The notes under the pieces were generated by a model. It did not search any database. It was given only the letters and a program-made list of their open reading frames with translations, and was not told the DNA's origin. Both the position numbers and the translations under genes were made by a program. A stretch of 64,000 nucleotides of DNA from Martelella endophytica. GTDB taxonomy: Bacteria > Pseudomonadota > Alphaproteobacteria > Rhizobiales > Rhizobiaceae. The DNA is taken from contig NZ_CP010803.1 of the NCBI RefSeq assembly GCF_000960975.1, forward strand, positions 558,001 to 622,000. Reading direction: 5' to 3'. Of the stretch, positions 45,072-61,456 are shown piece after piece (within the stretch, counting starts at the first letter, position 1; every line of letters begins with the position of its first letter).

Positions 45072-46109
45072 CTACCTGTCGCCGATCAGCATCCGGTAGC
45101 GGAACTGGTCGATGACCACGGCGAGCACCAGCAGGCCGCCAAGCAGGATCATCTGCATGTAGGAACCGATCTGCATCAGGTTCATGCCGTTTTGCACCAG
45201 CACGATGAAGAAGGCGCCGAGCACGACGCTTTCCACCCGGCCGATGCCGCCGCGCAGCGACACGCCGGCGATGACGCAGGCGGCAATCGATTCCAGCGCG
45301 ATCGTGCCGCCGAGATTGGTCTCGCCGCTTTCCACGCGCGCCGTCAGCAGCACGCCGGAAAGGGAGGCGAGAAGCGCGCAGAGCATATAGGCGATAAAGA
45401 GCGTGCGGGCGGTGTTGATGCCGGAGAGTTTTGCCGCCTTGACATTGCCGCCGACGGCATAGATGCGCGCGCCGGTGCGGGTACGGTTCATCAGCGTCCA
45501 GATGACGATGATGGCAAGCACGGCAACGACGACCGGAACCGGCACCCCGGCAATCCGCCCGAAGCCGAAGAAATCGCCGAAGGCATAGGGCAGCCCGCCA
45601 ATCGGCACGCCGCCGGTGATGAACAGCGCAACGCCTGCTCCCATCGACTGGACGCCGAGCGTCATGATGAAGGGCGACACGCCGAATTTGGCAACGCCGA
45701 GACCATTGAGCGCGCCGATGGCAAGCGCCGCAACAAAGCCCGTCAGGATGCCGAGCGTGACCACCAGGAAGGCAGCGTCGGGAAAAACACTGGCGAAATA
45801 GACCATTGCGGTGGCGGATGTGACCGAGGTGAGCGCGATCGCGGTTCCGACAGAAAGATCGAAGCCGCCGGTGACCAGCACGATCATCTGCCCGAGCGAA
45901 ACGAGCACGAGATAGACCGACTGGCGGGCCACATTGACGATATTGTCGACCGTCAGGAATTGTTTCGAGGCAAGCGCGAAGATGATCAGCGCCGCGACCA
46001 GAAAGAAGGGCAGCACGCCGAGCTTCAGGAAGACATCGCCAAAAAACTGCCGGAGGGAAAAGCCGGCGCCCGGCTGCGTCGTTTTCACGGCTTCCGCTTC
46101 ATTGGTCAT
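45072..46109 (-). CDS. CUT2-type ABC transporter permease (RbsC-like)
   Basis: 345-residue inner-membrane permease with about ten helices. The central conserved block GALNGLGVAKFGVSPFIMTLG and the GGTIALESIAACVIAG region are hallmarks of RbsC/XylH-type BPD_transp_2 proteins. It probably works as a homodimer with the two-domain ATPase encoded upstream, whose stop it overlaps by 4 bases. It is the last gene of the biotin-carboxylase/PxpABC operon and should carry that pathway's substrate. Confidence 0.88.
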   Translation of the reverse strand: MTNEAEAVKTTQPGAGFSLRQFFGDVFLKLGVLPFFLVAALIIFALASKQFLTVDNIVNVARQSVYLVLVSLGQMIVLVTGGFDLSVGTAIALTSVTSATAMVYFASVFPDAAFLVVTLGILTGFVAALAIGALNGLGVAKFGVSPFIMTLGVQSMGAGVALFITGGVPIGGLPYAFGDFFGFGRIAGVPVPVVVAVLAIIVIWTLMNRTRTGARIYAVGGNVKAAKLSGINTARTLFIAYMLCALLASLSGVLLTARVESGETNLGGTIALESIAACVIAGVSLRGGIGRVESVVLGAFFIVLVQNGMNLMQIGSYMQMILLGGLLVLAVVIDQFRYRMLIGDR

Positions 46110-47623
46110 GCCGTCTGCCTTTCTTCATGGAAAAATGCTTTGAGAATTGTCTCTTCCTCGATCTCGTCGCCTGAAAGCGATGCCGAGATCCGGCCCTGGC
46201 TAAAGACCAGCATGCGGTGCGCCAGGTTCATCGCCTCCGGCAGGTCGGAGGAAATCACCACCACCGCCTTGCCAGCCTCGCAGATCTGCTTGATCAACTG
46301 GTAGAGAGCGGCGCGCGTGCCGACATCGACGCCGACCGTCGGTTCATCGAAAATGTAGACGTCGCGATCGCTGGCAAGCCCCTTGCCGAACAGGATCTTC
46401 TGCTGGTTGCCGCCGGAAAGTTTTGAAGCCGTGCGCGCGAGATAGGCGTCTGACAGATCAACGCGACCGCCGATCTCTGCCGTCAGCCGATTGACCGCCT
46501 TTGGCCTTCTGAGGCCGAAGAGGCCACGGGTCTCCTGGTGGTCGAGCGTGGAAAGCGCGATATTGTCGCCGGCAGTCGCGCCCAGCATCAACCCCTCCTC
46601 CTTGCGGTCGGAAGGAAGGTAGAAGATGCCGTCCTTCAGGAGTTTTGCCAGCGGCGCTCCTGTTACATCGCGGCCCTTATAGGTGACGCTTCCGGCCGCA
46701 ATGCCGCCAAGGCCGATGGCAGCCCGGAAGGCGCGGGACTTGCCGCAGCCGACGAGACCGGCAACGCCTAGTACCTCGCCGCGGCGGACATCGATATCGA
46801 CGCCTTCGACGCCAGCCGCCTTCAGGCCGCGGATCTTGAGCACGGGTTCTGCTTCAGGATTTGCGGCAATCGCCGGATAGATCTCGCTGATCGCCCGGCC
46901 CGTCATCATCTCAACCAGCGCATTGTGGTCGAGGTCGCGGGCGCCGACGGTGCCAACAAGCTTGCCATCACGCAGAACCGTGATCCGGTCGGCGATCTGG
47001 GTGAACTCCTGGATACGGTGGGAGATATAGATAATGCCGGTTCCCGCCGCTTTCGCGTTGCGCACGAGGCGGAACAACTCCTTGGTCTCACGTTCTGTCA
47101 GCGACGCAGTCGGCTCATCGAGAATCAAAATCTTGGCGCGGGCATGGATGGCTTTCGCAATTTCCACCATCTGCTGCTCGGCGCGCGACAGGCTCAACAC
47201 CTGACGGCGAACATCGAGCGCGAAGCCCATTTCATCGAAAATCTCCTGCGCACGATGGCGCATGGCGGCGTGGTCGATCAGCATGCCCGTCAGCGGCTCG
47301 TCGCCGAGGAAGATGTTTTCGGCAACAGTGCGCGTCGGCACCAGCGAAAACTCCTGAAAAACCGCGCCAATGCCGGCTGCCCGCGCATCCCGCGCGGAGG
47401 AAAAATGCACCGAATGCCCGTCGATCAGCACTTCGCCTTCGCTCGGCTTGTACACGCCAGCGAGAATGGAAATCAGCGTCGATTTGCCGGCGCCGTTTTC
47501 GCCGAAGAGCACGTGGACCTCGCCCGCCTCAAGGCTGAAGTCGACATTATCGAGCGCCTTGACGCCCGGAAACTGTTTCGAAATACCGCTCATACGCACG
47601 AGCGGAATGGCTTTCTCAGCCAT
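46106..47623 (-). CDS. CUT2-type ABC transporter two-domain ATP-binding protein (RbsA-like)
   Basis: 505-residue tandem ATPase. Domain 1 has Walker A GENGAGKS at 41-48, a Q-loop FQEFSLVP, signature LSRAEQQ and Walker B LILDEP. Domain 2 has the altered Walker A GLVGCGKS near residue 275 and signature LSGGNQQK, with Walker B IFDEP, the asymmetric pattern usual for RbsA/MglA. The open frame extends 19 codons upstream, but the ATG at 47623 follows GGAAGGGG and begins MAEKAIPL. It lies after the TorT-like binding protein and before the permease. Confidence 0.88.
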   Translation of the reverse strand: MAEKAIPLVRMSGISKQFPGVKALDNVDFSLEAGEVHVLFGENGAGKSTLISILAGVYKPSEGEVLIDGHSVHFSSARDARAAGIGAVFQEFSLVPTRTVAENIFLGDEPLTGMLIDHAAMRHRAQEIFDEMGFALDVRRQVLSLSRAEQQMVEIAKAIHARAKILILDEPTASLTERETKELFRLVRNAKAAGTGIIYISHRIQEFTQIADRITVLRDGKLVGTVGARDLDHNALVEMMTGRAISEIYPAIAANPEAEPVLKIRGLKAAGVEGVDIDVRRGEVLGVAGLVGCGKSRAFRAAIGLGGIAAGSVTYKGRDVTGAPLAKLLKDGIFYLPSDRKEEGLMLGATAGDNIALSTLDHQETRGLFGLRRPKAVNRLTAEIGGRVDLSDAYLARTASKLSGGNQQKILFGKGLASDRDVYIFDEPTVGVDVGTRAALYQLIKQICEAGKAVVVISSDLPEAMNLAHRMLVFSQGRISASLSGDEIEEETILKAFFHEERQTA

Positions 47624-47643
47624 GGCCGGCCCCTTCCAGAGGT

Positions 47644-47672
47644 TTCCGCACCGCCGGCAAGGCGATGCGGAA
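47644..47672 (-). terminator. Hairpin between binding-protein and ATPase genes (CUT2-type importer)
   Basis: TTCCGCA-C-CGCC (47644-47655) pairs with GGCG-A-TGCGGAA (47661-47672), 11 pairs with one C-A mismatch, loop GGCAA. It starts 20 bases after the binding-protein stop on the minus strand. Confidence 0.6.
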
Positions 47673-47692
47673 TGCTTCATCTGTTGCGGATA

Positions 47693-48766
47693 TCAATCGA
47701 CCGAGAAGACCGGACGGAAGCCGTTCGGCGGCAGGATGTCGGTCTGCGGCACAGAGTCGATATTGTCGCCGTCGACGACAAAGATCTTCGGACCAACATG
47801 CTTGACCAGTTCCTTGCCTTCCAGCGCGCGAACCGCCTGATCGACGGCGATACGCCCCTGGATCACCATTGAATCCGCCGGCGCTGCCTCGATGAAGCCG
47901 CGCTTGATGCCCTCATAGACGCCGGGCGTCATGTAGAAGGCCAGAAGCCCAACCTTGTCCTTCAGGCCGCGTTCGCGAATGAGGCCCTGCGCGGCTTCGG
48001 CGGTCACGGCCGTGCCGGCGATATAAGCGACGTCAGGCTCGGCCTGCAGCACGTCTTCCACCAGTTTCAGCTGGGCTTCCTTGCCGGTGTCGCCGTATTT
48101 CGGCTCCAGCACGGTCAGCGCCGAACCTTCGACCGCTTTCAGGAAACCTTCATTGGCGGCTTCCACCCAGCCGGCACCGGCCGGACCCGGGAACCAGCCG
48201 ACAATTGCCGGTTCGCCGCCTGCCGGATGCTTTTCGGCGAGGTATTTGCCGGTCTCAAAGCCCATCGTGTAGAAAGAGACGAGCGACTTGGCGGTAATAT
48301 CGGGAGAAGAAATGCCGTTGATGACATCGATGACCGGAATACCCTTGGCCGCCACTTCCGAAACGAGGCTGTTCAGCCCGTCATAGGAAATCGCGCCGAT
48401 GACCACGGCATCCGCGCCACCGGCAACGCAGTCCTCGATCTGCGAAATCTGCTTGGCAAGCTCGGTATAACCGCCGGCCTCGACGACGTTCAGCTTGACG
48501 CCGAGGTCCTTCGCTTCCTCGACCACGCCGTAATCGACGCCGAGCCAGTAGGCGTCCTTCATATGCGGGAAGGATACGCAGATATTGTAGGCTTCCTCGG
48601 CCTTTTCGAGCGGCACATACTTGACGTCGGAAGCCGTGCCGTCGGCCGCAAAAGGCGGCGTGATTTCGACGGCATCATAGGGATACCAGGTCTCGGCAAG
48701 CACCGGCGATGCTGCGGAAACGGCGAGCGCCGAGATGGCGACTTTAAGAATTGAATGTGCTTTCAT
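47693..48766 (-). CDS. Periplasmic binding protein, TorT-like type 1 fold
   Basis: 357-residue secreted binding protein. A Sec signal of about 24 residues (MKAHSILK start, SPVLA cleavage) precedes a type 1 periplasmic fold. The mature start ETWYPYDAVEITPPFAADG and WLGVDYGVVEEAK resemble TorT, the TMAO-sensing binding protein, more than RbsB. Here it is linked to RbsA- and RbsC-like components, so transport rather than signalling is expected. It is downstream of the PxpABC/biotin carboxylase genes by 49 bases, suggesting the ligand is their substrate, perhaps a small lactam. The ligand identity is inference. Confidence 0.82.
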   Translation of the reverse strand: MKAHSILKVAISALAVSAASPVLAETWYPYDAVEITPPFAADGTASDVKYVPLEKAEEAYNICVSFPHMKDAYWLGVDYGVVEEAKDLGVKLNVVEAGGYTELAKQISQIEDCVAGGADAVVIGAISYDGLNSLVSEVAAKGIPVIDVINGISSPDITAKSLVSFYTMGFETGKYLAEKHPAGGEPAIVGWFPGPAGAGWVEAANEGFLKAVEGSALTVLEPKYGDTGKEAQLKLVEDVLQAEPDVAYIAGTAVTAEAAQGLIRERGLKDKVGLLAFYMTPGVYEGIKRGFIEAAPADSMVIQGRIAVDQAVRALEGKELVKHVGPKIFVVDGDNIDSVPQTDILPPNGFRPVFSVD

Positions 48767-48815
48767 TGAAGTTCCCCTTCGTGGTTATAGAAAAAGCAGC
48801 GTTCGGTTGGTATTC

Positions 48816-49787
48816 CTAGAAAAGCGCCCGGATTTTTCCGATAAGGGCGGCCCGGTCTTTCCGGGCGGCCAAGGCGGTTTCCATATCCACCTTGACGAAA
48901 CGGGTTGGCGTGTGTGGCTGAAGCTGGCCGATCAGGTCCATGTCGGCCGAGATCACCGTGCCGACCATGAAATAGCCGCCGCCGGAAACGGCGTCGCGAT
49001 GCAGAACGATCGGCTCCGAGCCGCCCGGCACCTGCACCGAACCATAAGGGTAGCAGGCGTCGACGATATTCGATGGATCGGACCCGGCGCCGAATGGCTG
49101 TTCGCGTTCGACAAACGCGATCGGATGACCGCCGCGGAAGCGATAGCCCATGCGGTCCGCCTCCGGCGCGACCTTCCATTCATCGGAGAAGAAATGCTCC
49201 AGTGAAGCATCCGTCATGCGGTGATCGTAGAGACCGGGAAGCACCCTGAGTTCGGCAGGCGTTCCCGGCTTGCGGCGCAGCGCCTCGGGGATTTCCTTGC
49301 CGATCTCCGCCTTTTTGGCAGGCGTGCCGACGGGAAGCTCGTCACCGACAGCAATCGCCCTGCCCTCGACACCGCCGAGCGCGCCGATGGGATAGGTCGA
49401 GCGGCTGCCGAGCGCCATCGGCACATCGATACCGCCGGCAACGGCGATATAGATACGCGCGCCGGTCTTGAGGAAGCCGAAGGAGAGCTTCTGCCCTGCC
49501 TTGATCGAGAGCGCGGTCCAGCCCGGCACTTCTTCCTCATCGATCAGCACCGGCATTTCGGCGCCGGTGACCGCGATGACCGCGTCTTCGGTGAATTCAA
49601 GCGCCGGCCCCATGAACACGGCTTCCAGGCCCGCAGCCCCCTCGTCATTGCCGACGAGATGATTTCCGGCGATCAGCGCCAGGCGATCCATGGCGCCGCC
49701 TTCGGGAATACCGAGGTGATAGTAGCCGGGGCGACCGAGATCCTGAACGGTGGTGGCAAGACCGGGATGGAGAACCTTAATGGTCAT
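48816..49787 (-). CDS. pxpC: 5-oxoprolinase subunit C / biotin-dependent carboxyltransferase subunit (KipA/PxpC family)
   Basis: 323-residue cytoplasmic protein of the KipA (AHS2) family. TIKVLHPGLATTVQDLGRPG is the family N-terminus, and the GIPEGGAMDRLAL and GSRSTYPIGALGG loops are conserved. In E. coli, PxpC works with PxpA and PxpB to hydrolyse 5-oxoproline with ATP. The same fold forms half of the carboxyltransferase domain of urea carboxylase. The frame is open upstream, but the ATG at 49787 overlaps the PxpB gene by 11 bases and starts the conserved region. It is the last enzyme gene of the operon before the importer. Confidence 0.87.
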   Translation of the reverse strand: MTIKVLHPGLATTVQDLGRPGYYHLGIPEGGAMDRLALIAGNHLVGNDEGAAGLEAVFMGPALEFTEDAVIAVTGAEMPVLIDEEEVPGWTALSIKAGQKLSFGFLKTGARIYIAVAGGIDVPMALGSRSTYPIGALGGVEGRAIAVGDELPVGTPAKKAEIGKEIPEALRRKPGTPAELRVLPGLYDHRMTDASLEHFFSDEWKVAPEADRMGYRFRGGHPIAFVEREQPFGAGSDPSNIVDACYPYGSVQVPGGSEPIVLHRDAVSGGGYFMVGTVISADMDLIGQLQPHTPTRFVKVDMETALAARKDRAALIGKIRALF

Positions 49788-50652
49788 TGAGAATGCCCTC
49801 CAGCTTGGCATTGTAGCCGTCAATGTCCTTGTTGAATTCGTTGAGGTCGAAGGAGACCTCGCGGATCGGCGGGGCGAAGGTGCCGTTCTCCACCGCCTTG
49901 ACCTCGGCATCATAGGTTTCGCGGTCGATCGGCTTGAACTTGACGATGTCGCCGGGCTTGAAGAACACCATGAAGTCCTTCAGGTAGCTGGTCGTCTGGG
50001 TCGGGTCGTAGATCGGCATCGGGGTGATGCCGAACATCTGGTAGCCGCCGGCCCCGCGCACCGAATAGATGCAGGAGAAGCAGCCGCCATAGCCGACAGT
50101 CAGCTTCGGCGTATCGGTGCGGGGGCGCAGATATTTCGGCACCTCGATCTGACGCTGGCGCTCGACCATCTGGTACATGAACGGCAGGCCCGAGACGAAG
50201 CCGACCATGGTGACAATCCACGGCGCGCCGGAATGGGCGTCGATGAAATCGGCGACGGATTTGTAGTCGTTGATCCGCGCGGCATATTCGAGATCAGTGC
50301 TTTCCGGATCCTGATGGCGCTCGCGGAAGCGCATCAGCGTCTCATGCGTCCACGGGTCGTTGTAATAGACCGGAATTTCGATGATCCGGGTCTTGATCAC
50401 CGGCTCCGATTTCTGGTCGGCAAGCTCGATCGCCTGGACTTCCTTCAGCATGTCGTCCGGATGGATGATGTCCGGGTCAAACTTGATCTGGAAGGAGGCA
50501 TTGGCCGGGCAGATCTCTGTGACGCCCCTGATCTTCGCGTCGCGGACCCTATTGGTCATCGACAGCGAATGGAAAAACGCCTCCAGCGACATTTCCTCGC
50601 TGCATTCGACAAAGAGGTGTTCGTCACCTCCGAAGGAATAGCGCAGCTTCAT
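49777..50652 (-). CDS. pxpB: 5-oxoprolinase subunit B / carboxyltransferase subunit (KipI/PxpB family)
   Basis: 291-residue protein of the KipI (AHS1) family. Recognisable features are the RYSFGGDEHLFVE start, the IIEIPVYYND strand, FIDAHSGAPWIVTMVGFVSG with FMYQM, and YGGCFSCIYSVRGAGGYQMFG. Relative to stand-alone PxpB (about 220 residues) it is longer, as are the forms linked to biotin carboxylases. It overlaps the biotin carboxylase stop by 4 bases and the PxpC start by 11. Together with PxpC it would make a heteromeric carboxyltransferase or lactam-binding unit. Confidence 0.85.
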   Translation of the reverse strand: MKLRYSFGGDEHLFVECSEEMSLEAFFHSLSMTNRVRDAKIRGVTEICPANASFQIKFDPDIIHPDDMLKEVQAIELADQKSEPVIKTRIIEIPVYYNDPWTHETLMRFRERHQDPESTDLEYAARINDYKSVADFIDAHSGAPWIVTMVGFVSGLPFMYQMVERQRQIEVPKYLRPRTDTPKLTVGYGGCFSCIYSVRGAGGYQMFGITPMPIYDPTQTTSYLKDFMVFFKPGDIVKFKPIDRETYDAEVKAVENGTFAPPIREVSFDLNEFNKDIDGYNAKLEGILNDH

Positions 50653-52043
50653 GACGAGGCCTCCTCATGGACTTTGGCCGGGGTTTGAGGGTTGAAGTGC
50701 GTTTCGAGCCAGGGCTCGAGAAAGCGGGTGTGGAAGGCGCCCTCGGCAACGGCTTCATCGCGGCAAAGGGCAAGGTGAAGCGGAATGGTGGTCGTAAGCC
50801 CTTCGATGACAAGACCGGACAGCGCCGCCTCCAGCTTTTTGAGGCAGGCCGCGCGGTTCTCGGCATGCACGATCAACTTGCCGAGCAGCGAATCGTAGAA
50901 GGGCGGCACGGTGTAGCCTTCGTAGAGGAAGGTATCGAAGCGGATGCCCGCGCCTTCCGGCGCGACGAGCTTGGCCACCGTGCCGGGGCCAGGCATGAAC
51001 CCCTTTGCCGGGTCTTCGGCATTGATGCGGCATTCGATGGCGTGGCCGGATAGGGCGATATCATCCTGCGTGACCGAAAGCTTTTCGCCGCCGGCAACGC
51101 GGATCATCTCCTGCACGAGATCGATGCCGGTGACCATTTCCGTGACCGGATGCTCGACCTGGATACGGGTGTTGACCTCGATGAAGTAGAATTCACCGGC
51201 GTCCTCGTCATAGAGATATTCGACCGTTCCCGCGCCCTTGTAGCCGACCGATTTCGCCAGCGCGACAGCGCTCTCACACAGCGCCGTGCGCACATCGTCC
51301 GGCAGGCGGCAGGAGGGGGCTTCTTCCCAGACCTTCTGCCGGCGGCGCTGCAGCGAGCACTCGCGCTCAAAGCAATGAACTGCGTTTTCGCCATCACCGA
51401 GGATCTGCACCTCGACATGCCGCGCCTTGGTGATGACCTTTTCAATATAAAGACCGCCATCGCCGAAGGCCGCCTTGGCTTCCGCTGCGGCCAGAGGAAA
51501 CTGGCGCTCGAAATCCTCCATCGTGTCGACGATACGGATACCGCGCCCTCCGCCGCCGGCAGCAGCCTTGATCATCGCCGGAAAGCCCGTTTGCGCGATG
51601 ATGTCGCGGGCCACGGCCATGTCCTCGATACGGCCATCGGAGCCCGGCACGGTCGGAACCCCGGCCTTTGCGGCGACGCTGCGGGCTGCAACCTTGTCGC
51701 CCAAGAGGCTGATCGCATCGGCAGACGGGCCAATGAAGATCATCCCGGCGTCGGTGACGGCGCGGGCAAATCCGGCATTCTCGGAGAGAAAGCCATAGCC
51801 CGGATGAATGGCATCCACACCGGCGCTCTTCGCCGCCTCGATGATCTTCTCGATATTCAGATAGGATTTTGCGGCAGACGGCGGGCCGATATCCACGGCT
51901 TCATCGGCGAGCTTCACGGCCAGCATGTCGGCATCGGCGGCGGAGTGCACCTGCACCGTCCTGATGCCGAGGGCCTTTGCCGCGCGAATGATGCGCACGG
52001 CAATTTCCCCGCGATTGGCGATGAGGATCGAGCGAATGGTCAT
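50649..52043 (-). CDS. Biotin carboxylase subunit (AccC-like)
   Basis: 464-residue ATP-grasp enzyme: N-terminal SILIANRGEIAVRI, glycine-rich loop KAAAGGGGRGIRIV, the ECSLQRRRQKVWEEAPS segment, FIEVNTRIQVEHPVTEMVTG with the catalytic Arg/Glu cluster, and the C-terminal AECRINAEDP-like GHAIECRINAEDP. It carboxylates the biotin of the carrier protein using bicarbonate and ATP. Housekeeping AccC is usually next to accB alone. Here the gene is flanked by a biotin carrier and PxpB with 4-base overlaps, so it most likely serves a dedicated carboxylase rather than fatty-acid synthesis. Confidence 0.9.
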   Translation of the reverse strand: MTIRSILIANRGEIAVRIIRAAKALGIRTVQVHSAADADMLAVKLADEAVDIGPPSAAKSYLNIEKIIEAAKSAGVDAIHPGYGFLSENAGFARAVTDAGMIFIGPSADAISLLGDKVAARSVAAKAGVPTVPGSDGRIEDMAVARDIIAQTGFPAMIKAAAGGGGRGIRIVDTMEDFERQFPLAAAEAKAAFGDGGLYIEKVITKARHVEVQILGDGENAVHCFERECSLQRRRQKVWEEAPSCRLPDDVRTALCESAVALAKSVGYKGAGTVEYLYDEDAGEFYFIEVNTRIQVEHPVTEMVTGIDLVQEMIRVAGGEKLSVTQDDIALSGHAIECRINAEDPAKGFMPGPGTVAKLVAPEGAGIRFDTFLYEGYTVPPFYDSLLGKLIVHAENRAACLKKLEAALSGLVIEGLTTTIPLHLALCRDEAVAEGAFHTRFLEPWLETHFNPQTPAKVHEEASS

Positions 52044-52282
52044 GCCTCGACCTCGGCGAGCACCTGACCGGCCATCACGGGTTCTGCGTCATCCACCAGG
52101 AAAATAATGCTGCCGCCGGAAACGCCAGCGGGAATCTCGTGAAACGTCTTCATCACTTCGATCAGCCCGATCGTCTCCTTCTCGGTGACGCTGGCGCCAT
52201 CTTCCTTGAAAGCGGCTGCGTCGGGAGAGGGCTTGCGGTAGAAAGTGCCCGGAAGGGGCGACCTGATTTCGAGCTTGCTCAT
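52040..52282 (-). CDS. Biotin carboxyl carrier protein (short, biotinyl-lipoyl domain only)
   Basis: 80-residue protein consisting only of a biotinyl domain. The attachment motif E-V-M-K-T places the biotin lysine at residue 45, with an EIPAGVSG turn and a GQVLAEVEA closing strand. Housekeeping AccB is about 150 residues with a proline/alanine linker; this one lacks the linker, like a detached urea-carboxylase carrier domain. GGAGA is 7 bases before the ATG, which overlaps the PxpA stop. It should be biotinylated by BirA and shuttle carboxyl groups from the AccC-like subunit to PxpB/PxpC. Confidence 0.88.
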   Translation of the reverse strand: MSKLEIRSPLPGTFYRKPSPDAAAFKEDGASVTEKETIGLIEVMKTFHEIPAGVSGGSIIFLVDDAEPVMAGQVLAEVEA

Positions 52283-53076
52283 GCTGTTCTCCGGATTTTT
52301 TCATTTATGATTTCTGAAACGGGGGAAATGCGGATGCCGGCGGCGATCAGCGCCTCGCGCAGCGCCTTTGCGATGGCAAGCGCGCCGGGCGTATCGGAAT
52401 GGAAACAGATCGATTCGAAGGGAATGTCGACGTCGCGGCCCGTCACCGCCGTCACCTTGCCCTGCTTGCAGGCGCGAACGGCACGCGCGGCCAGCGCCTC
52501 AGGGTCAAGATGACCGACGGAACGGGTGAAGACGATCTGACCGTCCTCGCCATAGTCCCGGTCTGCAAAGAATTCGCGGATGACCGGAACGCCCGCTTCC
52601 ACCGCGATCTCTTCCGTCACCGAACCGGCCATGCAGAAAATGCTGACATTAGGAGCGGCGGTGCGCATGTAATCGACAAACAGATGCGAAAGCTCGGCGT
52701 TGACCGCCATCTCCATGTAGAGCGCGCCGTGCGGCTTCACATGCTGGAGGATACCGCCATGGCGGCGGGTGAATTCGCGCAGCGCACCGACCTGATAGAT
52801 GATGTCGTTGACCAGTTCCTTGGCCGTGCCGTCGATCTTGCGGCGGCCGAACCCCTGCAGATCGTTGTAGCCGGGATGCGCGCCGACGCCGATCCCGTGC
52901 TCGACGGCCATGCGCACTGTCTGATCCATCAGGTTCGGATCGCTGGCATGGAACCCGGTGGCGATGTTGGCGGATGTGATGAACTCCATGAGCTGCGCGT
53001 CATCGGTGTCTCCGATCTGCCAGCGACCGTAGGATTCGCCCATGTCACAATTGATGTCGACAACCTCGCGCTGCAA
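52279..53076 (-). CDS. pxpA: 5-oxoprolinase subunit A (LamB/YcsF family)
   Basis: 265-residue cytoplasmic TIM-barrel hydrolase of the LamB/YcsF family. The N-terminal VDINCDMGESYGRW carries the conserved DxNCDxGE motif, and GVGAHPGYNDLQGFGRR and VKPHGALYMEM supply the His and Lys active-site strands. PxpA opens 5-oxoproline, and Aspergillus LamB is needed for growth on 2-pyrrolidinone. The start is a TTG with GGGAG upstream. First gene of the eight-gene operon; all downstream enzyme genes are coupled to it by overlaps. Confidence 0.88.
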   Translation of the reverse strand: MQREVVDINCDMGESYGRWQIGDTDDAQLMEFITSANIATGFHASDPNLMDQTVRMAVEHGIGVGAHPGYNDLQGFGRRKIDGTAKELVNDIIYQVGALREFTRRHGGILQHVKPHGALYMEMAVNAELSHLFVDYMRTAAPNVSIFCMAGSVTEEIAVEAGVPVIREFFADRDYGEDGQIVFTRSVGHLDPEALAARAVRACKQGKVTAVTGRDVDIPFESICFHSDTPGALAIAKALREALIAAGIRISPVSEIINEKIRRTA

Positions 53077-53225
53077 AACCCTACTCCCTGAATGTGCGGG
53101 ACCGGCTGACCACGGACAAAACTGCCCTCAATTTAAGCGCCAATCCCGAATGCCTATGAATTCGTCAAAAAACAAGCTAGACCGGAAAAACGACTTTGAA
53201 AAATTCTATTTCTTGTTCAGCATTA

Positions 53226-53238
53226 TCTGAAAAACAGA
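53226..53238. promoter_or_regulatory. LysR-type T-N11-A box 1
   Basis: TCTGAAAAACAGA is a 13-base imperfect palindrome with TCTG/CAGA arms and the T-N11-A form of LysR operators. It lies about 150 bases upstream of pxpA. Confidence 0.65.
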
Positions 53239-53344
53239 ACGAAACGGCATCACGCACGCCTCGAAGTATCGGGCTTGAAACCTGACTTTCACGGGTTTTC
53301 TGACCGGAATGACAGCGTCTTTGGAGCCGAGAATGGCTGGTCAC

Positions 53345-53357
53345 TCAGAAAAACTGA
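53345..53357. promoter_or_regulatory. LysR-type T-N11-A box 2
   Basis: TCAGAAAAACTGA has TCAG/CTGA arms and the same A-rich centre as box 1. It ends 37 bases before the LysR start codon. Confidence 0.65.
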
Positions 53358-53367
53358 AAGACCACAT

Positions 53368-53380
53368 TCTGAAAATCAGA
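53368..53380. promoter_or_regulatory. LysR-type T-N11-A box 3
   Basis: TCTGAAAATCAGA has 5-bp arms TCTGA/TCAGA. Its first base is 23 bases, roughly two helical turns, after the first base of box 2. It ends 14 bases before the LysR start, suiting autoregulation. Confidence 0.65.
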
Positions 53381-53394
53381 AGGGAAATTGCTTA

Positions 53395-54294
53395 GTGTCG
53401 CTCAATCTCAGACAGCTCCGCTATTTCGTCGCCACCGCCGAACTCGGGCAGGTCTCGCAATCCGCCATGCATCTGTCGATTTCGCAATCGGCGATCACGA
53501 CGGCCATCAAGGAGCTGGAACAAACCGTCGGCACGACGCTGTTTACGCGTACCTCCCATGGCATGAGCCTGACGGATGCCGGACGGCAATTCCTGTCGCA
53601 CGCCTATGAGATCCTGCAGAAGGTCGAGGAAGCGACGCAGCTTACCAGCTACACGGAGGAGCTGACCGGCACGCTGACGGTTGCCACCAGCTATACCGTC
53701 ATCGGCTATTTCCTGCCGCTTCATATCGAGCGGTTGCGGCGGCGTTTTCCGGGGCTGGAAATCAAACTCTTCGAACTCAATCGCGAGTCGATCGAGGAGG
53801 GTCTGCTGACCAATCGCTACGACATTGCCGTCCTTCTGACCTCCAATATCCTCAACACCGAGCTGACCACGGAAAAGCTGCTCAGTTCCGAACGGCGACT
53901 TTGGGTCCCTGCGCGCCATCCGCTGCTAAGTGCGGAATCGGTCGGGCTGATGGAAACCTCTGAAGAAAGCTACATCATGCTGACGGTCGACGAGGCCTCG
54001 CACAGTTCGCTGAAATACTGGAGCCGGACGGCGTTTCAGCCGAAGATCACGCTGCGCACCTCGTCCATCGAGGCCGTGCGCTCGCTGGTGGCCAATGGCC
54101 AGGGCGTGGCGATCCTCTCCGACATGGTGCATCGCCCCTGGTCGCTCGAAGGACGGCGCATCGAGACGATCAATCTGCGCGACCCGGTCCCCTCGATGGA
54201 TGTCGGTCTTGCCTGGCGCAGGAATGCCGAGTTCACGCCGGCCATGGCGGCCTTCCGCTCCTATTTCCGGCAGGCCTTCCACATTCCGAACTGA
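53395..54294 (+). CDS. LysR-family transcriptional regulator
   Basis: 299-residue LysR protein. The HTH (LRQLRYFVATAELGQVSQSA, then SISQSAITTAIKELEQTVG) covers about residues 4-60 and a LysR effector domain follows. The start is taken as the GTG at 53395 because AGAAGGGA is about 10 bases upstream; the frame is open earlier but reads through the control region. Divergent position and the three T-N11-A boxes identify it as the regulator of the PxpABC/importer operon. The convergent XRE gene ends 13 bases after its stop. Confidence 0.87.
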   Translation: MSLNLRQLRYFVATAELGQVSQSAMHLSISQSAITTAIKELEQTVGTTLFTRTSHGMSLTDAGRQFLSHAYEILQKVEEATQLTSYTEELTGTLTVATSYTVIGYFLPLHIERLRRRFPGLEIKLFELNRESIEEGLLTNRYDIAVLLTSNILNTELTTEKLLSSERRLWVPARHPLLSAESVGLMETSEESYIMLTVDEASHSSLKYWSRTAFQPKITLRTSSIEAVRSLVANGQGVAILSDMVHRPWSLEGRRIETINLRDPVPSMDVGLAWRRNAEFTPAMAAFRSYFRQAFHIPN

Positions 54295-54307
54295 TGAAGG
54301 CTTCCCG

Positions 54308-54871
54308 CTAGAAGGTCGGCGGCGTGCTGGCGGAGACGATGACGCAATCCTCCGGCCCCACCTGACGGAAACGATGCGGCTCGCGGCTGTCGAAATAATA
54401 GGCATCGCCGGGGCCCAGGATCTTGCGCTGATCGCCGACGGTGATCTCGACCCGTCCGGAGATCACGATCCCGCCCTCCTCGCCCTCGTGGCGATACATC
54501 ACCCGGCCGGTATCGGCGCCCGGCCTGTAGGTCTCCTGCAGGATCATCATGGCGCGGCCGATGGAATTGCCCACCTGCTTCAGCGACAGCCGCGCCTTGC
54601 CGATCTCCGTCAGCTCCTCGGCGGCATAGAACACCTGCTTCTCGGCTTCCGGCGTGAAGGCGAAGAACTCCGACAGACCGATCGGAATGCCCTCGAGAAT
54701 CCGCTTCAGCGATCCGACCGAGGGGTTCAGCCTGCCGGACTCGATCAGCGAGATCGTCGAGCTCGACACATTCGCGTTTTTCGCCAGCGCCCGCTGCGAA
54801 AGCTTCGCCCGCTCGCGCACCGCTCTCAACGTCCGCCCGAGCTCGATATCGTCATGCGAAGCGCTGAGCAT
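54308..54871 (-). CDS. XRE-family regulator with C-terminal cupin domain (PuuR-like)
   Basis: 187-residue regulator: HTH_XRE at about 12-66 (LRAVRERAKLSQRALAKNAN, then SSSTISLIESGRLNPSVGSL) and a cupin beta-barrel at about 110-180 with RHEGEEGGIVISG and PGDAYYFDSREPHRF. PuuR, the putrescine repressor, has this layout. Divergence from gabT/gabD suggests it senses putrescine, GABA or a related amine and controls them. An AT-rich divergent region with an inverted repeat lies at 54872-55020. Confidence 0.87.
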   Translation of the reverse strand: MLSASHDDIELGRTLRAVRERAKLSQRALAKNANVSSSTISLIESGRLNPSVGSLKRILEGIPIGLSEFFAFTPEAEKQVFYAAEELTEIGKARLSLKQVGNSIGRAMMILQETYRPGADTGRVMYRHEGEEGGIVISGRVEITVGDQRKILGPGDAYYFDSREPHRFRQVGPEDCVIVSASTPPTF

Positions 54872-54901
54872 GCTTCATATCCTCATCATTTCCGTTCCAG
54901 T

Positions 54902-54948
54902 ATCAATTAAATCAATATCTTCCGATTATCAAGAAACAGACTTTCTTG
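54902..54948. promoter_or_regulatory. Candidate operator region between XRE-cupin gene and gabT
   Basis: Two direct ATCAAT repeats (54902-54907 and 54911-54916) are followed by a perfect inverted repeat, CAAGAAA (54930-54936) and TTTCTTG (54942-54948), with a 5-base spacer. Either could bind the XRE-cupin protein; the symmetric one is the better operator candidate. Confidence 0.5.
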
Positions 54949-55020
54949 CCGATCGAAAGCCACATACGCTCTTCCCACAATGACGGCGCTTGACGACCGT
55001 CACGGAGCAAGGAGCAGCTT

Positions 55021-56301
55021 ATGTTGAATTCGGATATCGCCACACGGCGGGATGCCGCCATTTCACGCGGCGTCGGCATGCAGACGCAGATCTATGTCGA
55101 CCGGGCCAAAAACGCGGAAGTCTTCGACGTCGAGGGCCGGCGTTATATCGACTTTGCCGCCGGCATCGCCGTGGTCAACACCGGCCATTGCCACCCGAAG
55201 GTCATGGCAGCGGTGGAAGATCAGTTGAAGCGCTTCACCCATACCTGCCATCAAGTGCTCCCCTACGAGCACTATATCCGCCTTGCCGAGCGGCTGAATG
55301 CCGCCGTTCCCGGCGATTTCGACAAGAAGACTGTCTTCGTCACCACCGGCGCCGAGGCTGTCGAGAATGCGGTAAAGGCCGCGCGCGCGGCCACCGGCCG
55401 TTCGGCCGTGATCGCCTTCAATGGCGGCTTTCATGGCCGCACCTTCATGACCCTGTCGCTGACCGGCAAGGTCGCACCCTACAAGACCGGCTTCGGGCCG
55501 ATGATGCCGGATGTCTACCACATTCCCTATCCTGCCGAACTGCACGAGACGTCGGCTGAAGACAGCCTGAAGGCGCTGAAGTCCCTGTTCAAGACCGATC
55601 TCGATCCGGCGCGCGTCGCCGCCATCATCATCGAGCCGGTACAGGGCGAAGGCGGCTTCTATCCGGCCCCCGCCGAACTGATGCGCGCCATCCGCGCCAT
55701 CTGCGACGCGCACGGCATCGTCATGATCGCCGACGAAGTGCAGACCGGCATCGGCCGCACCGGCAAGCTCTTCGCCATGGAAGCCTATGATGTCGCCGCC
55801 GACCTGACGACGATCGCCAAGGGCATTGGCGGCGGCCTGCCGCTTGCCGCCGTCACCGGACGGGCGACAATGATGGATGCGGCCGGCCCCGGCGGGCTCG
55901 GCGGCACCTATGGCGGCAACCCGCTGTCGATCGCCGCCGCCAATGCGGTGCTGGACGTGATCGAAGAGGAAGACCTCCTGAACCGCGCCAGCCGGCTCGG
56001 CTCCTACCTCAAGCAGCGGCTTGAGGCGATCCGCGCCGTGACGCCCGAGATTGCCGAGATCCGTGGCCCGGGCTTCATGGTCGCTGCCGAGTTCATGACG
56101 GAAGACGGCGCGCCGAACCCGGACATGACCAATGCGGTGCGGCTGGAAGCCCAGAGCCGCGGCCTCATCCTGCTGACCTGCGGCGTTTACGGCAATGTCA
56201 TCCGCTTCCTCGCCCCGCTGACGATCGAGGAAGAGGTTCTGGCGGAAGGCGTCGACATTCTCGAGGCATCGATCGCCGCCGTGAAGGAGAAGCAGGCATG
56301 A
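55021..56301 (+). CDS. gabT: 4-aminobutyrate aminotransferase
   Basis: 426-residue class III PLP aminotransferase that converts GABA and 2-oxoglutarate to succinate semialdehyde and glutamate. Landmarks are FAAGIAVVNTGHCHPKV, the FHGRT loop, IIEPVQGEGGFYPAP, MIADEVQTGIGRTGKLF and TIAKGIGGGLPL with the PLP lysine at residue 267. Length and motifs match GabT/PuuE-type GABA transaminases. AAGGAG is 8 bases before the ATG. It overlaps gabD by 4 bases, giving a two-step route to succinate. Confidence 0.92.
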   Translation: MLNSDIATRRDAAISRGVGMQTQIYVDRAKNAEVFDVEGRRYIDFAAGIAVVNTGHCHPKVMAAVEDQLKRFTHTCHQVLPYEHYIRLAERLNAAVPGDFDKKTVFVTTGAEAVENAVKAARAATGRSAVIAFNGGFHGRTFMTLSLTGKVAPYKTGFGPMMPDVYHIPYPAELHETSAEDSLKALKSLFKTDLDPARVAAIIIEPVQGEGGFYPAPAELMRAIRAICDAHGIVMIADEVQTGIGRTGKLFAMEAYDVAADLTTIAKGIGGGLPLAAVTGRATMMDAAGPGGLGGTYGGNPLSIAAANAVLDVIEEEDLLNRASRLGSYLKQRLEAIRAVTPEIAEIRGPGFMVAAEFMTEDGAPNPDMTNAVRLEAQSRGLILLTCGVYGNVIRFLAPLTIEEEVLAEGVDILEASIAAVKEKQA

Positions 56302-57749
56302 AATTGAAAGATCCAACCCTTCTCGAGCACCGCGCTTATATCAACGGCGCCTGGATCGAAGGCGAAAGAACCTTCGACGTGCTCAATCCTGCAACAGGCG
56401 ACAAGATTGCCGCCGTCACCGACCTTACCGTCGACGATATCCGCGCCGCAATCGACGCCGCCCATGCCGCAAAACCCGCCTGGGCAGCACTGACCGGCAA
56501 GGAACGTGCAGGCTATCTGCGCCGATGGTACGACCTGATGGTGGAAAACGCCGATGATCTGGCGACCATCCTGACGGCCGAGATGGGAAAACCCTGGCCG
56601 GAAGCGCGCGGCGAAATCCTCTATGGCGCAAGCTTCATCGAATGGTTCGCCGAAGAGGCCAAGCGCGTCTATGGCGACACCATTCCTGGCCACCAGCGCG
56701 ACAAGCGCATCATCGTGATGAAACAGCCCGTCGGCGTTGTTGGTTCGATCACGCCCTGGAACTTTCCCAATGCAATGATCGCCCGCAAGGTTGCCCCTGC
56801 CCTTGCCGCCGGCTGCACCTTCGTTGCCCGACCCGCCGAACTCACGCCCCTCTCGGCCCTTGCCATGGCGGTGCTCGCCGAGCGCGCCGGCATCCCCGCC
56901 GGCGTCTTCAACGTCATCCCCTGCGCCGATGCCGCAGCAGCAGGCGCAGAACTCTGCGCCAATGAGAAGATCGCCAAGATCACCTTCACCGGCTCGACCC
57001 GTGTCGGCCGCATCCTGATGCGGCAATGCGCCGATACGATCAAGAAGATGTCGCTGGAGCTTGGCGGCAACGCCCCGTTCATCGTCTTCGATGATGCCAA
57101 TCTCGATGCGGCCGTCGAGGGCGCGACGATCGCCAAATACCGCAATAACGGCCAGACCTGCGTCTGCGCCAACCGCATCTATGTTCAGTCCCGCGTCTAT
57201 GACGCCTTTGCCGAGAAGCTGAAGGCAAAGGTGCTTGCCCTGAAGGTTGGCGACGGGTTCGAGAACGGCGTCAGTGTCGGCCCGCTGATCAGCCCTCAGG
57301 CCCTGGTCAAGGTCGAGGATCATATCGCCGACGCCGTCGCCAAGGGTGCAAAAGTCATTGCCGGCGGCAACCGCTCGAACCTCGGCGCAACCTTCTTCGA
57401 GCCGACGGTCATGACCGGTGTAACGCAGGCGATGAAGGTCGCGCATGAGGAAACCTTCGGGCCCGTGGCGCCGCTCATTCGCTTCGAGAGCGAGGACGAG
57501 GTCATCGCCATGGCCAATGACAGCGAGTTCGGCCTCGCGGGCTATTTCTTCGCCCGCGATCTCGCCCGCGTCTTCCGCGTGGCCGAAGCGCTTGAAACCG
57601 GCATGGTCGGCGTCAATACCGGCCTGATCTCCACCGAAGTCGCCCCCTTCGGCGGCATCAAGCAGTCCGGCCTCGGCCGCGAGGGCTCGAAGTACGGGAT
57701 CGAGGACTATCTGGAGATCAAATATCTCTGCCTCGGCGGAATCGCCTGA
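56298..57749 (+). CDS. gabD: Succinate-semialdehyde dehydrogenase
   Basis: 483-residue aldehyde dehydrogenase. Catalytic Cys288 lies in NNGQTCVCANRIYVQ and the base Glu254 in SLELGGNAPFIVFDDANLD, the same residue numbers as I recall for E. coli GabD. The PWNFPNAMIARK and ETFGPVAPL blocks are also present. The second cysteine two residues after the nucleophile (CVC) is the redox-switch cysteine described in GabD. It oxidises succinate semialdehyde to succinate with NAD(P). Translationally coupled to gabT. Confidence 0.92.
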   Translation: MKLKDPTLLEHRAYINGAWIEGERTFDVLNPATGDKIAAVTDLTVDDIRAAIDAAHAAKPAWAALTGKERAGYLRRWYDLMVENADDLATILTAEMGKPWPEARGEILYGASFIEWFAEEAKRVYGDTIPGHQRDKRIIVMKQPVGVVGSITPWNFPNAMIARKVAPALAAGCTFVARPAELTPLSALAMAVLAERAGIPAGVFNVIPCADAAAAGAELCANEKIAKITFTGSTRVGRILMRQCADTIKKMSLELGGNAPFIVFDDANLDAAVEGATIAKYRNNGQTCVCANRIYVQSRVYDAFAEKLKAKVLALKVGDGFENGVSVGPLISPQALVKVEDHIADAVAKGAKVIAGGNRSNLGATFFEPTVMTGVTQAMKVAHEETFGPVAPLIRFESEDEVIAMANDSEFGLAGYFFARDLARVFRVAEALETGMVGVNTGLISTEVAPFGGIKQSGLGREGSKYGIEDYLEIKYLCLGGIA

Positions 57750-59395: not shown

Positions 59396-61456
59396 CTACG
59401 CTTCGAACACCAACGCCTCGAACGTGCCGACCGGCGGCAACACGAACCAGCGAAGGTCGCCGCCCTCCGAAGGCTCGGCGGACACATCGGCTCCGGCCAC
59501 CAGCGTGCGCCCGGTTGGGCCAACGCCGCGGATGCCAAGCCTCAGGCCGGTGAGCACGGGCGGATCCTCATAGAGATTGTTGTGCTGGCCGCTGTAGTTG
59601 ACGAGATGAACCAGCAGCCGGCCGGTCTCGACCTGTCGCTGCAGCGTCACCTCGAAAAGCCCGTTGCCTTCGATCACGACCGGAAGCGCGTCCGGCCTTT
59701 CGGCGAGGAACGAGGTCACGAGGGTTCGATTGTCCGGCAGGCTATCGCGATGATAGAGCGCATCGGGATGCCAGGGGAAATAACAGCAGTCGCCTTCCCC
59801 GTATTGCCCCCGGATCACGCCCGGCAGATCGCTTTCGACCTCCGGGAAGCAGAGTTCCGGCGGGCCGAAGCGCTGCGGCGGAAGAAGTTTCAGCAATGTC
59901 ATGGCGCCATCGCGCGGTTCGCATGCATGGTAGACGCCGTCGAGCATATAGAGGCCAGCACCGGTTTTCTCCGCCTCGTCCGCATCCGCCTCGAAATAGG
60001 CGCCGCGCATGTCGCGCCGCATCGTAAGCCGCTCGCGGATCGGCAGGCTTTCGAGCGCCGGCTTTTCGCGGCGCGCGCCGCGCTCGTCGTAAAGGCCGGT
60101 CTCGCCGGTCGCGATCAGCAGTCCGCCAGCCTTCACCCAGGCATCCAGCGTCGCCGCCTCGCCGTCGGAGATGCAGGCGACATTCGGCATCACGATCGCC
60201 CGATAGCGGTCGAGATCGGTTTCGGCGAGCTTCTCGTCGCTGATGAAATCGAAGGGAATGCGGGCCTCGAGCAGCATCCGATAGGCGCCGCGGAAGGCCT
60301 GCGCACCCGCCGCGCGGGCATCCGTGCGGCCGCGATAGGCATTGGTGCCGAAGGAATGGTAGAGGCCGACACGGGCGGCGGACGAGAGACCGGTATAGTG
60401 TTCTTCGTTGCGGGCATGCCATTTGTAGAGACGCTCGATGGCCGGGAAGGCCTTCTTGTCCTGCTGGTCCATGACGCCGAGCAGGTAATAGTCGAGCGTC
60501 GCGCCGCTTGCGAGCTGCTGGGCCATGCGCAGTTCCTGGTAGGCGCCGGTTTCCGAGACGAAGCGCCAGGCGAAGTCGATGAAATTGGTCGCCGTCGACG
60601 CCGCCATCTTCTCCGGCGCATAGGCCCGCGCCCAGCGCGCCTGCTCACCCGACTGGTAGGGCCATTCCGGCTGCGCCCGGTCGACGGCGCGCTGCACCTC
60701 CATGCGGATGAAATCGTTCTTGCCGCGCTGGCCGCTCATGGCGACGCGCGGATTGACCGCCTTGATGTGGTCGTAGATGCGGCCGCTGAGCTCGCGCGAG
60801 GTACGGTCCTTGAATTCCACATAGTCGGGGTAAGCCTCGCAGGCAAAATCCTCGCGCTCGGGCAGCGCCTTGCCATACATCTGGCGAAACCGCCGCTGGC
60901 AGTTCTCGCACACGCAGATGCCGAAATCCTCCCCGGAATAGGTCGTGGTTCGGTAGCCGAACATGTTGAAGAACACGCCGTCGACGTCATAGCGCCCGAG
61001 CGCCTCGGAAATGATGTCGAAGGCATATTGCTGGTACCAGCCGCCGTTGACGCAGGCCTGGTAGGTGCCGTTGTATTCGAGTGGCCGGCCCTGCCTGTTG
61101 TGCACGAACCATTCCGGATGGGCCTCATAGGCGATCCGGGTCGCCTTCGACATGTCGAAGCGCCCGACCAGCGCCAGCCCCTCCTGATGCGCCGCCTCGA
61201 TCGCGTCGCCGAGGGCATCGCCCTTCATCATCGGGTTGCGGGCGTGGAGCGGCAGGTCGGTCGGGTAGAAGGCATAGATGCCGCCGATGTTGTAGAGCAG
61301 GACATTGGCGCCGAATTCCCGGGTCTCGCGGGCCAGCGCCTTCTGGTCGTAAAGCGCGTCCGGCTGGCGCAGGTTGGTCTGGACCATCCGGTAGGGCTTC
61401 TGCCACCACGCCTTTTCTCCGGCCAGATTGATATTTCCCCCGGTTTTCTCCGACAT
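59396..61456 (-). CDS. Putative glycoside hydrolase-like protein (GH42-like TIM barrel with glutamine-amidotransferase-like domain)
   Basis: 686-residue cytoplasmic protein without signal peptide. An N-terminal TIM barrel (about 1-340) contains AHPEWFVHNRQGRPLEYNG, the DGVFFNMFGY strand and a short cysteine cluster ICVCENCQRRF, frequent in alpha-amylase-like or GH42-like catabolic proteins. A middle domain (about 350-560) resembles the beta-galactosidase trimerisation/type 1 glutamine amidotransferase fold (IPFDFISDEKL, IVMPNVACISDGE, GGLLIATGETGLYD). A C-terminal beta domain follows. I do not recognise the exact family and the catalytic acids are not assigned. AGAGGAG precedes the ATG at 61456. 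It shares an operon with a GarR-like dehydrogenase and a peptide-type importer that may carry oligosaccharides. Confidence 0.65.
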   Translation of the reverse strand: MSEKTGGNINLAGEKAWWQKPYRMVQTNLRQPDALYDQKALARETREFGANVLLYNIGGIYAFYPTDLPLHARNPMMKGDALGDAIEAAHQEGLALVGRFDMSKATRIAYEAHPEWFVHNRQGRPLEYNGTYQACVNGGWYQQYAFDIISEALGRYDVDGVFFNMFGYRTTTYSGEDFGICVCENCQRRFRQMYGKALPEREDFACEAYPDYVEFKDRTSRELSGRIYDHIKAVNPRVAMSGQRGKNDFIRMEVQRAVDRAQPEWPYQSGEQARWARAYAPEKMAASTATNFIDFAWRFVSETGAYQELRMAQQLASGATLDYYLLGVMDQQDKKAFPAIERLYKWHARNEEHYTGLSSAARVGLYHSFGTNAYRGRTDARAAGAQAFRGAYRMLLEARIPFDFISDEKLAETDLDRYRAIVMPNVACISDGEAATLDAWVKAGGLLIATGETGLYDERGARREKPALESLPIRERLTMRRDMRGAYFEADADEAEKTGAGLYMLDGVYHACEPRDGAMTLLKLLPPQRFGPPELCFPEVESDLPGVIRGQYGEGDCCYFPWHPDALYHRDSLPDNRTLVTSFLAERPDALPVVIEGNGLFEVTLQRQVETGRLLVHLVNYSGQHNNLYEDPPVLTGLRLGIRGVGPTGRTLVAGADVSAEPSEGGDLRWFVLPPVGTFEALVFEA

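Follow-up and report, generated by a model that had tools for sequence, protein, structure and literature searches.

A split urea-carboxylase-like enzyme encoded with a PxpA/LamB-type hydrolase and an importer in Martelella endophytica: a candidate system for opening cyclic amides

The 64,000-nucleotide stretch of the Martelella endophytica genome analysed here (contig NZ_CP010803.1, positions 558,001 to 622,000; hereafter, the window) contains an array of eight minus-strand genes (45072-53076). These encode a PxpA/LamB-like hydrolase (P0001), a biotin carboxyl carrier protein (BCCP; P0002), a biotin carboxylase (BC; P0003), two carboxyltransferase (CT) halves (P0004 and P0005), and three components of an importer (P0006, P0007, and P0008). 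Judging from homology and conserved residues, this operon probably specifies a split, biotin-dependent N-carboxylase of the urea carboxylase (UC) type together with a PxpA/LamB hydrolase and an importer of its own, and it would employ urea-carboxylase chemistry for ring opening, separately from the ordinary 5-oxoprolinase PxpABC. Its substrate would be a small cyclic amide, and a lactam, for example 2-pyrrolidinone, is the likeliest candidate.

The eight genes mostly overlap. The distances from the PxpA gene to the permease gene are -4, -4, -4, -11, +49, +69, and -4 nt, assuming that the gene for P0005 starts at 49787 and that for P0007 at an inner ATG (47623). Since the gaps are so short, the genes are likely to form one transcript. 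A sequence-only reading of this region had already described the genes as one coupled operon. All genes named in it are open frames located where it had placed them, with family profiles in agreement. The listed PxpC open reading frame (ORF; 48816-49913) begins too early, the coding sequence being 48816-49787.

The two CT halves, as their sequences indicate, are not an ordinary PxpBC pair. P0004 (49777-50652, minus strand) contains the CT_C_D domain (134.2 bits), while P0005 (48816-49787, minus strand) contains CT_A_B (298.9 bits); the start of the latter was set from its overlap with P0004, which removes the first 42 residues of the frame. The UC model gave 114.7 bits for P0004 versus 68.8 bits with the PxpB model. 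The second value is below the cut-off of the PxpB equivalog TIGR00370 (145.55 bits), which is passed by the other PxpB of the genome (165.5 bits). With the PxpC equivalog NF045499 (cut-off 500), P0005 scored 210 bits, and the arginine-type PxpC of this genome also reached just 220.9 bits. The cut-off for single-chain urea carboxylase (TIGR02712; 1303.85) was reached by none of the proteins tried, P0003 (518.5 bits), P0004 (114.7 bits), and P0005 (251.7 bits), as fits a split enzyme. The closest solved relatives of P0004 are 3va7 (K. lactis urea carboxylase) and 5i8i (urea amidolyase). Lys173 and Tyr204 of P0004 align with Lys1605 and Tyr1637 of the yeast enzyme KlUA, and according to PMC5770610, Lys1605 most likely serves yeast urea carboxylase as the essential general base in its CT reaction.

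The residue aligned with KlUA Lys1605 was surveyed in 213 PxpB-like loci: the window, 80 near relatives of P0004, 12 plasmid records, and 120 stretches from a sample of Pseudomonadota genomes. The loci were sorted according to whether a BC gene lay no more than 5.5 kb away, and then the residue was read. The 120 wide stretches represent the best PF02682 matches listed, the remaining listed matches being excluded; lysine-type loci score low in that listing and are thus undersampled there, so their prevalence was taken from the search with P0004. The 80 near relatives were chosen by likeness to P0004 and supply 80 of the 89 lysine-type loci. The other nine are the window, two haloarchaea, Thermomicrobium, Thioclava, Methylobacterium, and three further genomes. 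Lysine occupies this position in the window, in all 80 near relatives, and in 9/9 fused UC. Loci linked to a BC gene have lysine in 88 and arginine in 22 of 110 cases, while 93 of the 94 loci lacking a nearby BC gene have arginine. The single lysine-type locus among these 94 is that of Thermomicrobium, which possesses genes for BCCP, PxpA, a TorT-type importer, and the biotin transporter BioY.

Thinning at 85% identity left 134 rows: 9 UC, 19 lysine-type, 21 arginine-type with BC, and 85 other arginine-type. No third residue occurs at the Lys1605 column in these rows; the split at this column is built in by construction, because the groups were defined by that residue, and only other columns are independent. 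One of these, KlUA 1637, has tyrosine in all 28 UC and lysine-type rows and tryptophan in all 106 arginine-type rows. The columns D1529, N1561, R1598, Y1606, and T1613 of KlUA track the same division less sharply. Also in the other CT half, the UC-type residues P, S, N, D, and Y around KlUA 1316-1324 are common to the lysine type; P0005 has Pro238, Asn240, Asp243, and Tyr246 within its residues 238-246 (numbered from the true start). The PxpC profile that was used to find the A-B domains for residues and trees has one of its five seed rows out of frame by 1 base. The Lys/Arg and Tyr/Trp columns offer a simple rule for telling UC-type enzymes apart from those of the 5-oxoprolinase type.

The same division was recovered in trees built from both CT halves joined. 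The first tree comprised 79 rows, with every third arginine-type row lacking BC (29/85), and a more careful one comprised 49 rows, with 13 chosen arginine-type rows. In both, UC and the lysine type formed one branch against all arginine types (SH-aLRT 100 in the 79-row tree; 100/100 in the 49-row tree). The main lysine-type clade contains the haloarchaea (100/100).

Matches to P0004 (E ≤1e-30) were present in 21 of 397 Pseudomonadota genomes (requested completeness ≥90). Twenty genomes other than that of the window (17 new, three refetched wider) served as sampled loci. All 20 have the Lys/Tyr pair, 18 have BC, 17 BCCP, and 18 PxpA. The gaps fall to a locus cut by a contig end (L297), one with no PxpA gene (L310), and two with neither BC nor BCCP (L308 and L309). 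A BC gene adjoins lysine-type loci far more often than arginine-type loci (18/20 versus 22/115; p = 1e-9, kinship not corrected). PxpA, BCCP, and BC are encoded near all 80 near relatives of P0004, and PxpC near 79 of them, an association beyond chance; the closely related Martelella radicis has a P0004 homologue that is 99% identical. A search at E ≤1e-10, in which up to 8,000 candidates were scored, yielded at least 7,841 relatives of P0004, some of which may be arginine types. Where the 120 matches listed bear names, these are carboxyltransferase, 5-oxoprolinase subunit B, allophanate hydrolase, or urea carboxylase. The lysine type, found in haloarchaea and Thermomicrobium as well, is thus a widespread type, and as a distinct enzyme type it is unrecognised in the literature searched.

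The remaining three enzymes fit the same picture. P0001 (52279-53076, minus strand) belongs to the family LamB_YcsF (PF03746, 301.8 bits), that is, to the family of the LamB hydrolase of Aspergillus nidulans, and passes the PxpA model NF003814 (295.1 bits; cut-off 226). It keeps the residues that are more than 93% conserved in every PxpA group, including D11, E14, H43, H67, H116, H226, and D228, so the hydrolase looks ordinary. The PxpA family is named after LamB. The minimal biotin carrier proposed in the sequence-only reading was confirmed as the 80-residue P0002 (52040-52282, minus strand; Biotin_lipoyl, 45.4 bits; NF005457, 117.8 bits, cut-off 87), with Lys45 located within EVMKTF. The xxMK motif occurs in the BCCP of 106 of 109 lysine-type stretches, three loci being counted twice; the other three are stretches in which no BCCP was found. 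P0003 (50649-52043, minus strand) contains the Biotin_carb_N/C and CPSase_L_D2 domains, passes NF009471 (752.3 bits; cut-off 686), and matches the biotin carboxylase 8hz5 with 505 bits.

The 4.81-Mb chromosome encodes three BC genes: an AccC-like one (454-residue frame), that for P0003, and one in a 1167-residue frame fitting pyruvate carboxylase. A urea carboxylase can be excluded for the last of these, since matches to CT_A_B and to CT_C_D are confined to two places, the window and 4.58 Mb. The PxpB/PxpC pair at 4.58 Mb (L173) is of the arginine type, and a second PxpA gene lies at 0.49 Mb (491460-492173), about 730 kb from that pair (4576334-4577895) round the circle, if the chromosome is circular. 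The presence of other carboxylases and of a likely ordinary PxpABC in the genome therefore makes the operon an extra, dedicated set. The proposal that the five proteins amount to a urea-carboxylase-like enzyme in dissected form, together with a hydrolase, finds good support in the retained UC lysine and UC-only residues, the shared UC branch, the frequency of BC and BCCP in the sampled loci, and these other gene copies.

For the lysine-type set, homology and residues suggest the following mechanism. The TorT-like binding protein and the RbsA/RbsC-like components would import the cyclic amide. P0003 would carboxylate biotin on Lys45 of P0002 at the expense of ATP and bicarbonate, as is typical of its family. 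P0004 and P0005 would then transfer the carboxyl group from biotin onto the nitrogen of the amide, the conserved Lys173 presumably acting as the base in the manner of Lys1605 of the yeast enzyme. Finally, PxpA would hydrolyse the activated ring, and the N-carboxy group would leave as CO2, yielding an omega-amino acid. If this product were gamma-aminobutyric acid (GABA), it might be converted by GabT and GabD to succinate.

A biotin-dependent carboxylase acting on another nitrogen compound (urea, guanidine, hydantoin, creatinine, or similar), whose product is hydrolysed by PxpA or another amidase, is a less likely explanation, with perhaps a modest share of the probability. The lysine clade does contain urea carboxylase, and the importers are diverse among the relatives. 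HyuA-like and HyuB-like genes are near 7 and 6 of 88 loci, respectively (names from sequence starts and one annotated case), and in the Haladaptatus locus amidase and amidohydrolase genes adjoin that for PxpA. However, PxpA/LamB proteins are known for lactam opening, and PxpA occurs in most sampled loci. Also, the annotated lysine-type stretches examined name no separate allophanate hydrolase gene, for which no model search was made; the label "allophanate hydrolase subunit 1" in these stretches stands on the CT half itself.

The importer consists of the TorT/RbsB-like periplasmic binding protein P0006 (47693-48766; Peripla_BP_4), the RbsA-like ATPase P0007 (46106-47623; two stretches of ABC_tran, corresponding to two ABC domains; the ORF opens at 47680, with the likely start at 47623), and the RbsC-like permease P0008 (45072-46109; BPD_transp_2, 122.3 bits), all on the minus strand. 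P0006 is 79% identical over 330 residues to the solved chain 4yhs_A, presumably from a structural-genomics entry with a buffer ligand. The model "TMAO reductase system periplasmic protein TorT" accepts P0006 as well (418.7 bits; cut-off 200), but since its gene lies together with those of an ABC importer, TorT is probably a misnomer for this branch. It is rather unlikely that the importer serves a sugar or polyol and is co-transcribed with unrelated enzyme genes by accident. In favour of such a role, RbsA/RbsC-type transporters usually carry sugars, the 49-nt gap separates the importer from the enzyme genes, and 57 of the 80 near relatives have no match to P0006 in their stretch. Against this, TorT/RbsA/RbsC importers are present at 8 of 20 sampled lysine-type loci (7/20 within 6.9 kb) versus 0/93 arginine-type loci lacking BC (Fisher p = 2e-7 to 2e-6, kinship not corrected and with the window's own protein as query), and one also adjoins the Thermomicrobium cluster. 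No match to the importer's binding protein was found within 6.9 kb of the 22 arginine-type loci with BC or the nine UC loci.

Beyond the enzyme genes, a LysR-type regulator gene (P0011; 53395-54294, plus strand; LysR domains; inner GTG start assumed from relatives) is divergent to the operon and is likely to control it; a LysR match occurs in 77 of the 80 near relatives. It is followed by a gene for a helix-turn-helix (HTH)-cupin regulator (54308-54871, minus strand) and by gabT and gabD. The former (55021-56301, plus strand; Aminotran_3) encodes GABA transaminase (NF005692, 774 bits; cut-off 724), and the latter (56298-57749, plus strand; Aldedh) succinate-semialdehyde dehydrogenase (TIGR01780, 728 bits; cut-off 646.35). 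The sequence-only reading had placed gabT-gabD next door and assigned GABA consumption to them. They are indeed neighbours, 2 kb away, but are located on the opposite strand past two regulators and are not operon members. The metabolic link is likewise weak: gabT lies near the operon here but near only six of the 80 near relatives (three Martelella-like, two Pannonibacter, and one metagenome Hyphomicrobiales) and one of the 20 sampled loci, L300, where it directly follows the importer. True gabT genes (>400 bits) within 6.9 kb were detected at 5/89 lysine-type loci overall, 1/20 sampled lysine-type loci, 0/93 arginine-type loci lacking BC, 0/22 arginine-type loci with BC, and 0/9 UC loci. The genome has no true gabT other than the one in the window (934 bits versus 213 for the next match), which therefore probably serves the ordinary GABA shunt, perhaps as a convenient neighbour.

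Several observations weigh against the split carboxylase and lactam assignment. The stretches of L308 and L309, two loci of one genus (2/20), lack genes for BC and BCCP, though PxpA and LysR are present, and the other BCs of their genomes (G210 and G302) are at most 53% identical to P0003. Biotin use does not require the lysine, because arginine-type PxpB also occurs beside BC, at 22 loci. The AlphaFold model of P0004 is poor (mean pLDDT 52; below 50 for residues 139-231). The linkage of gabT is not significant in the sampled loci (1/20 versus 0/93 arginine-type loci, p = 0.18). Weaker class III aminotransferase matches are found near the haloarchaeal and L313 loci; they occur near arginine-type loci too (5/93) and are thus no special mark of the lysine type. 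Finally, many Rhizobium-type relatives carry a PotABCD-like transporter downstream (permease cluster at 33/88 and binding-protein cluster at 29/88 loci), which together with two SDR genes behind a GntR gene stands in place of this importer. One common substrate is therefore not assured, and substrates may vary among the relatives.

That the operon encodes an ordinary PxpABC 5-oxoprolinase, with BC and BCCP as incidental or accessory neighbours, appears improbable. This explanation draws on the PxpA model passed by P0001, on the 5-oxoprolinase subunit names given to the parts in databases, and on the abundance of arginine-type PxpABC lacking BC. It does not explain why P0004 falls so far under the PxpB cut-off passed by its counterpart at 4.58 Mb, or why P0004 has the Lys/Tyr rather than the Arg/Trp pair; moreover, BC and BCCP are kept in the near relatives, and in this operon their genes share a 4-nt overlap. 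Scarcely credible, too, is the reading implied by the names of NF005457 and NF009471, a second acetyl-CoA carboxylase, given that the only CT genes of the operon are of the CT_A_B/CT_C_D type rather than AccA/AccD and that another AccC-like gene is available in the genome. These two models label the BCCP and BC genes (50649-52282) as acetyl-CoA carboxylase parts despite the UC-type CT partners, which is likely a systematic naming error. The set as a whole is usually mislabelled, with the CT halves listed as 5-oxoprolinase or allophanate hydrolase and BC and BCCP as acetyl-CoA carboxylase.

Compared with known systems, the split carboxylase shares with urea carboxylase/urea amidolyase (KlUA; 3va7, 5i8i) the BC, the BCCP, both CT halves, the catalytic lysine, the UC-type residues, and the tree branch. 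It consists of five separate proteins including LamB/PxpA, whereas KlUA is one chain with allophanate hydrolase. With PxpABC (YbgJKL of E. coli) it has in common the PxpA hydrolase family and the CT_C_D and CT_A_B domains but differs in the Lys/Tyr pair, and the arginine type mostly lacks a nearby BC gene (93/115 loci). Arginine-type PxpABC sets that include BC and BCCP (those of Lactiplantibacillus and Agrobacterium vitis, along with fused forms; arginine type by residue) have the same composition of PxpA, PxpB, PxpC, BC, and BCCP, but they possess the Arg/Trp pair and are off the UC branch. In the clusters of L. plantarum and Gemmobacter (L132 and L262; arginine type with BC and BCCP), a putative hydro-lyase and an NRAMP metal transporter are also encoded, possibly reflecting a different pathway. 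The A. vitis cluster has a second BCCP-like gene with the biotin-lysine motif replaced (L136:5848-6291), and second BCCP-like frames lacking this motif occur in L197, L217, and L219. The LamA/LamB system of A. nidulans likewise includes a LamB-family hydrolase but is fungal. Its LamA is reportedly annotated as urea-carboxylase-like in UniProt.

According to PMC8016842, lamA and lamB of A. nidulans act in lactam catabolism under AmdR, with gatA and gabA, and AmdR is the common regulator of lactam, omega-amino-acid, and acetamide genes. PMC13274462 reports that pxpTABC of C. glutamicum is needed for growth on 5-oxoproline. As annotated in PMC11315280, a six-gene operon of S. aureus includes pxpB, pxpC, pxpA, accB, and accC; it has the same composition and possibly belongs to the arginine-type group. 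By its entry title, PDB 9yx5 (released 2025-11-26) contains the M. smegmatis long chain acyl-CoA carboxylase complex with MSMEG_0435-0436, that is, a PxpB/PxpC-like pair with a biotin carboxylase complex, but the pair is of the arginine type by alignment. Biotin-dependent PxpABC, a lactam carboxylase, or a lysine-type PxpA-linked carboxylase were not described among the matches listed in the literature searched, which had most subscription papers outside its coverage. The earlier statement that no characterised system has this composition is thus fair for biochemistry within that literature but too broad in view of the S. aureus annotation and the 9yx5 pair. The bare gene composition is already present in annotated genomes; what is new is the lysine-type, UC-like nature of the CT halves.

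A few further genes were noted in passing. The BioY biotin transporter gene ends the Thermomicrobium cluster (L135:8817-9422), which fits a biotin enzyme. Genes for TCP-1/cpn60-like chaperonins are located near two distant lysine-type clusters (L131:1-291 and L313:3367-4992). Elsewhere in the window (59396-61456), a 686-residue protein with GHL6 and beta-galactosidase trimerisation domains represents a hypothetical glycoside hydrolase.

The trees also bear on the origin of urea carboxylase. Its stem holds Thermomicrobium and two further split forms (99/97), and among these three, a PxpA gene accompanies Thermomicrobium and L313 (= L240) in their stretches, while L310 has none. Forcing all lysine-type rows together to the exclusion of UC costs 32.8 log-likelihood units (approximately unbiased test, p = 0.006), a value to be read with the residue-based definition of the group, the origin of the question in the first tree, and the long branches in mind. 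This is suggestive of urea carboxylase nesting inside the split forms, from which it would descend if the tree is rooted among the arginine types. The split enzyme may thus be a cousin, perhaps an ancestor, of the urea-degrading enzyme of many microbes. We offer only tentatively, as somewhat doubtful, the combined proposal that lactam rings are opened by a split UC-type enzyme, which places biotin-borne CO2 on the ring nitrogen for PxpA to cut the activated ring, and that urea carboxylase/urea amidolyase arose by fusion within an older split lineage, most members of which are PxpA-linked, so that the pathway for urea would derive from one for cyclic amides. Should the mechanism prove correct, biotin would offer a way to open cyclic amides, and there would be a testable account of how urea carboxylase arose.

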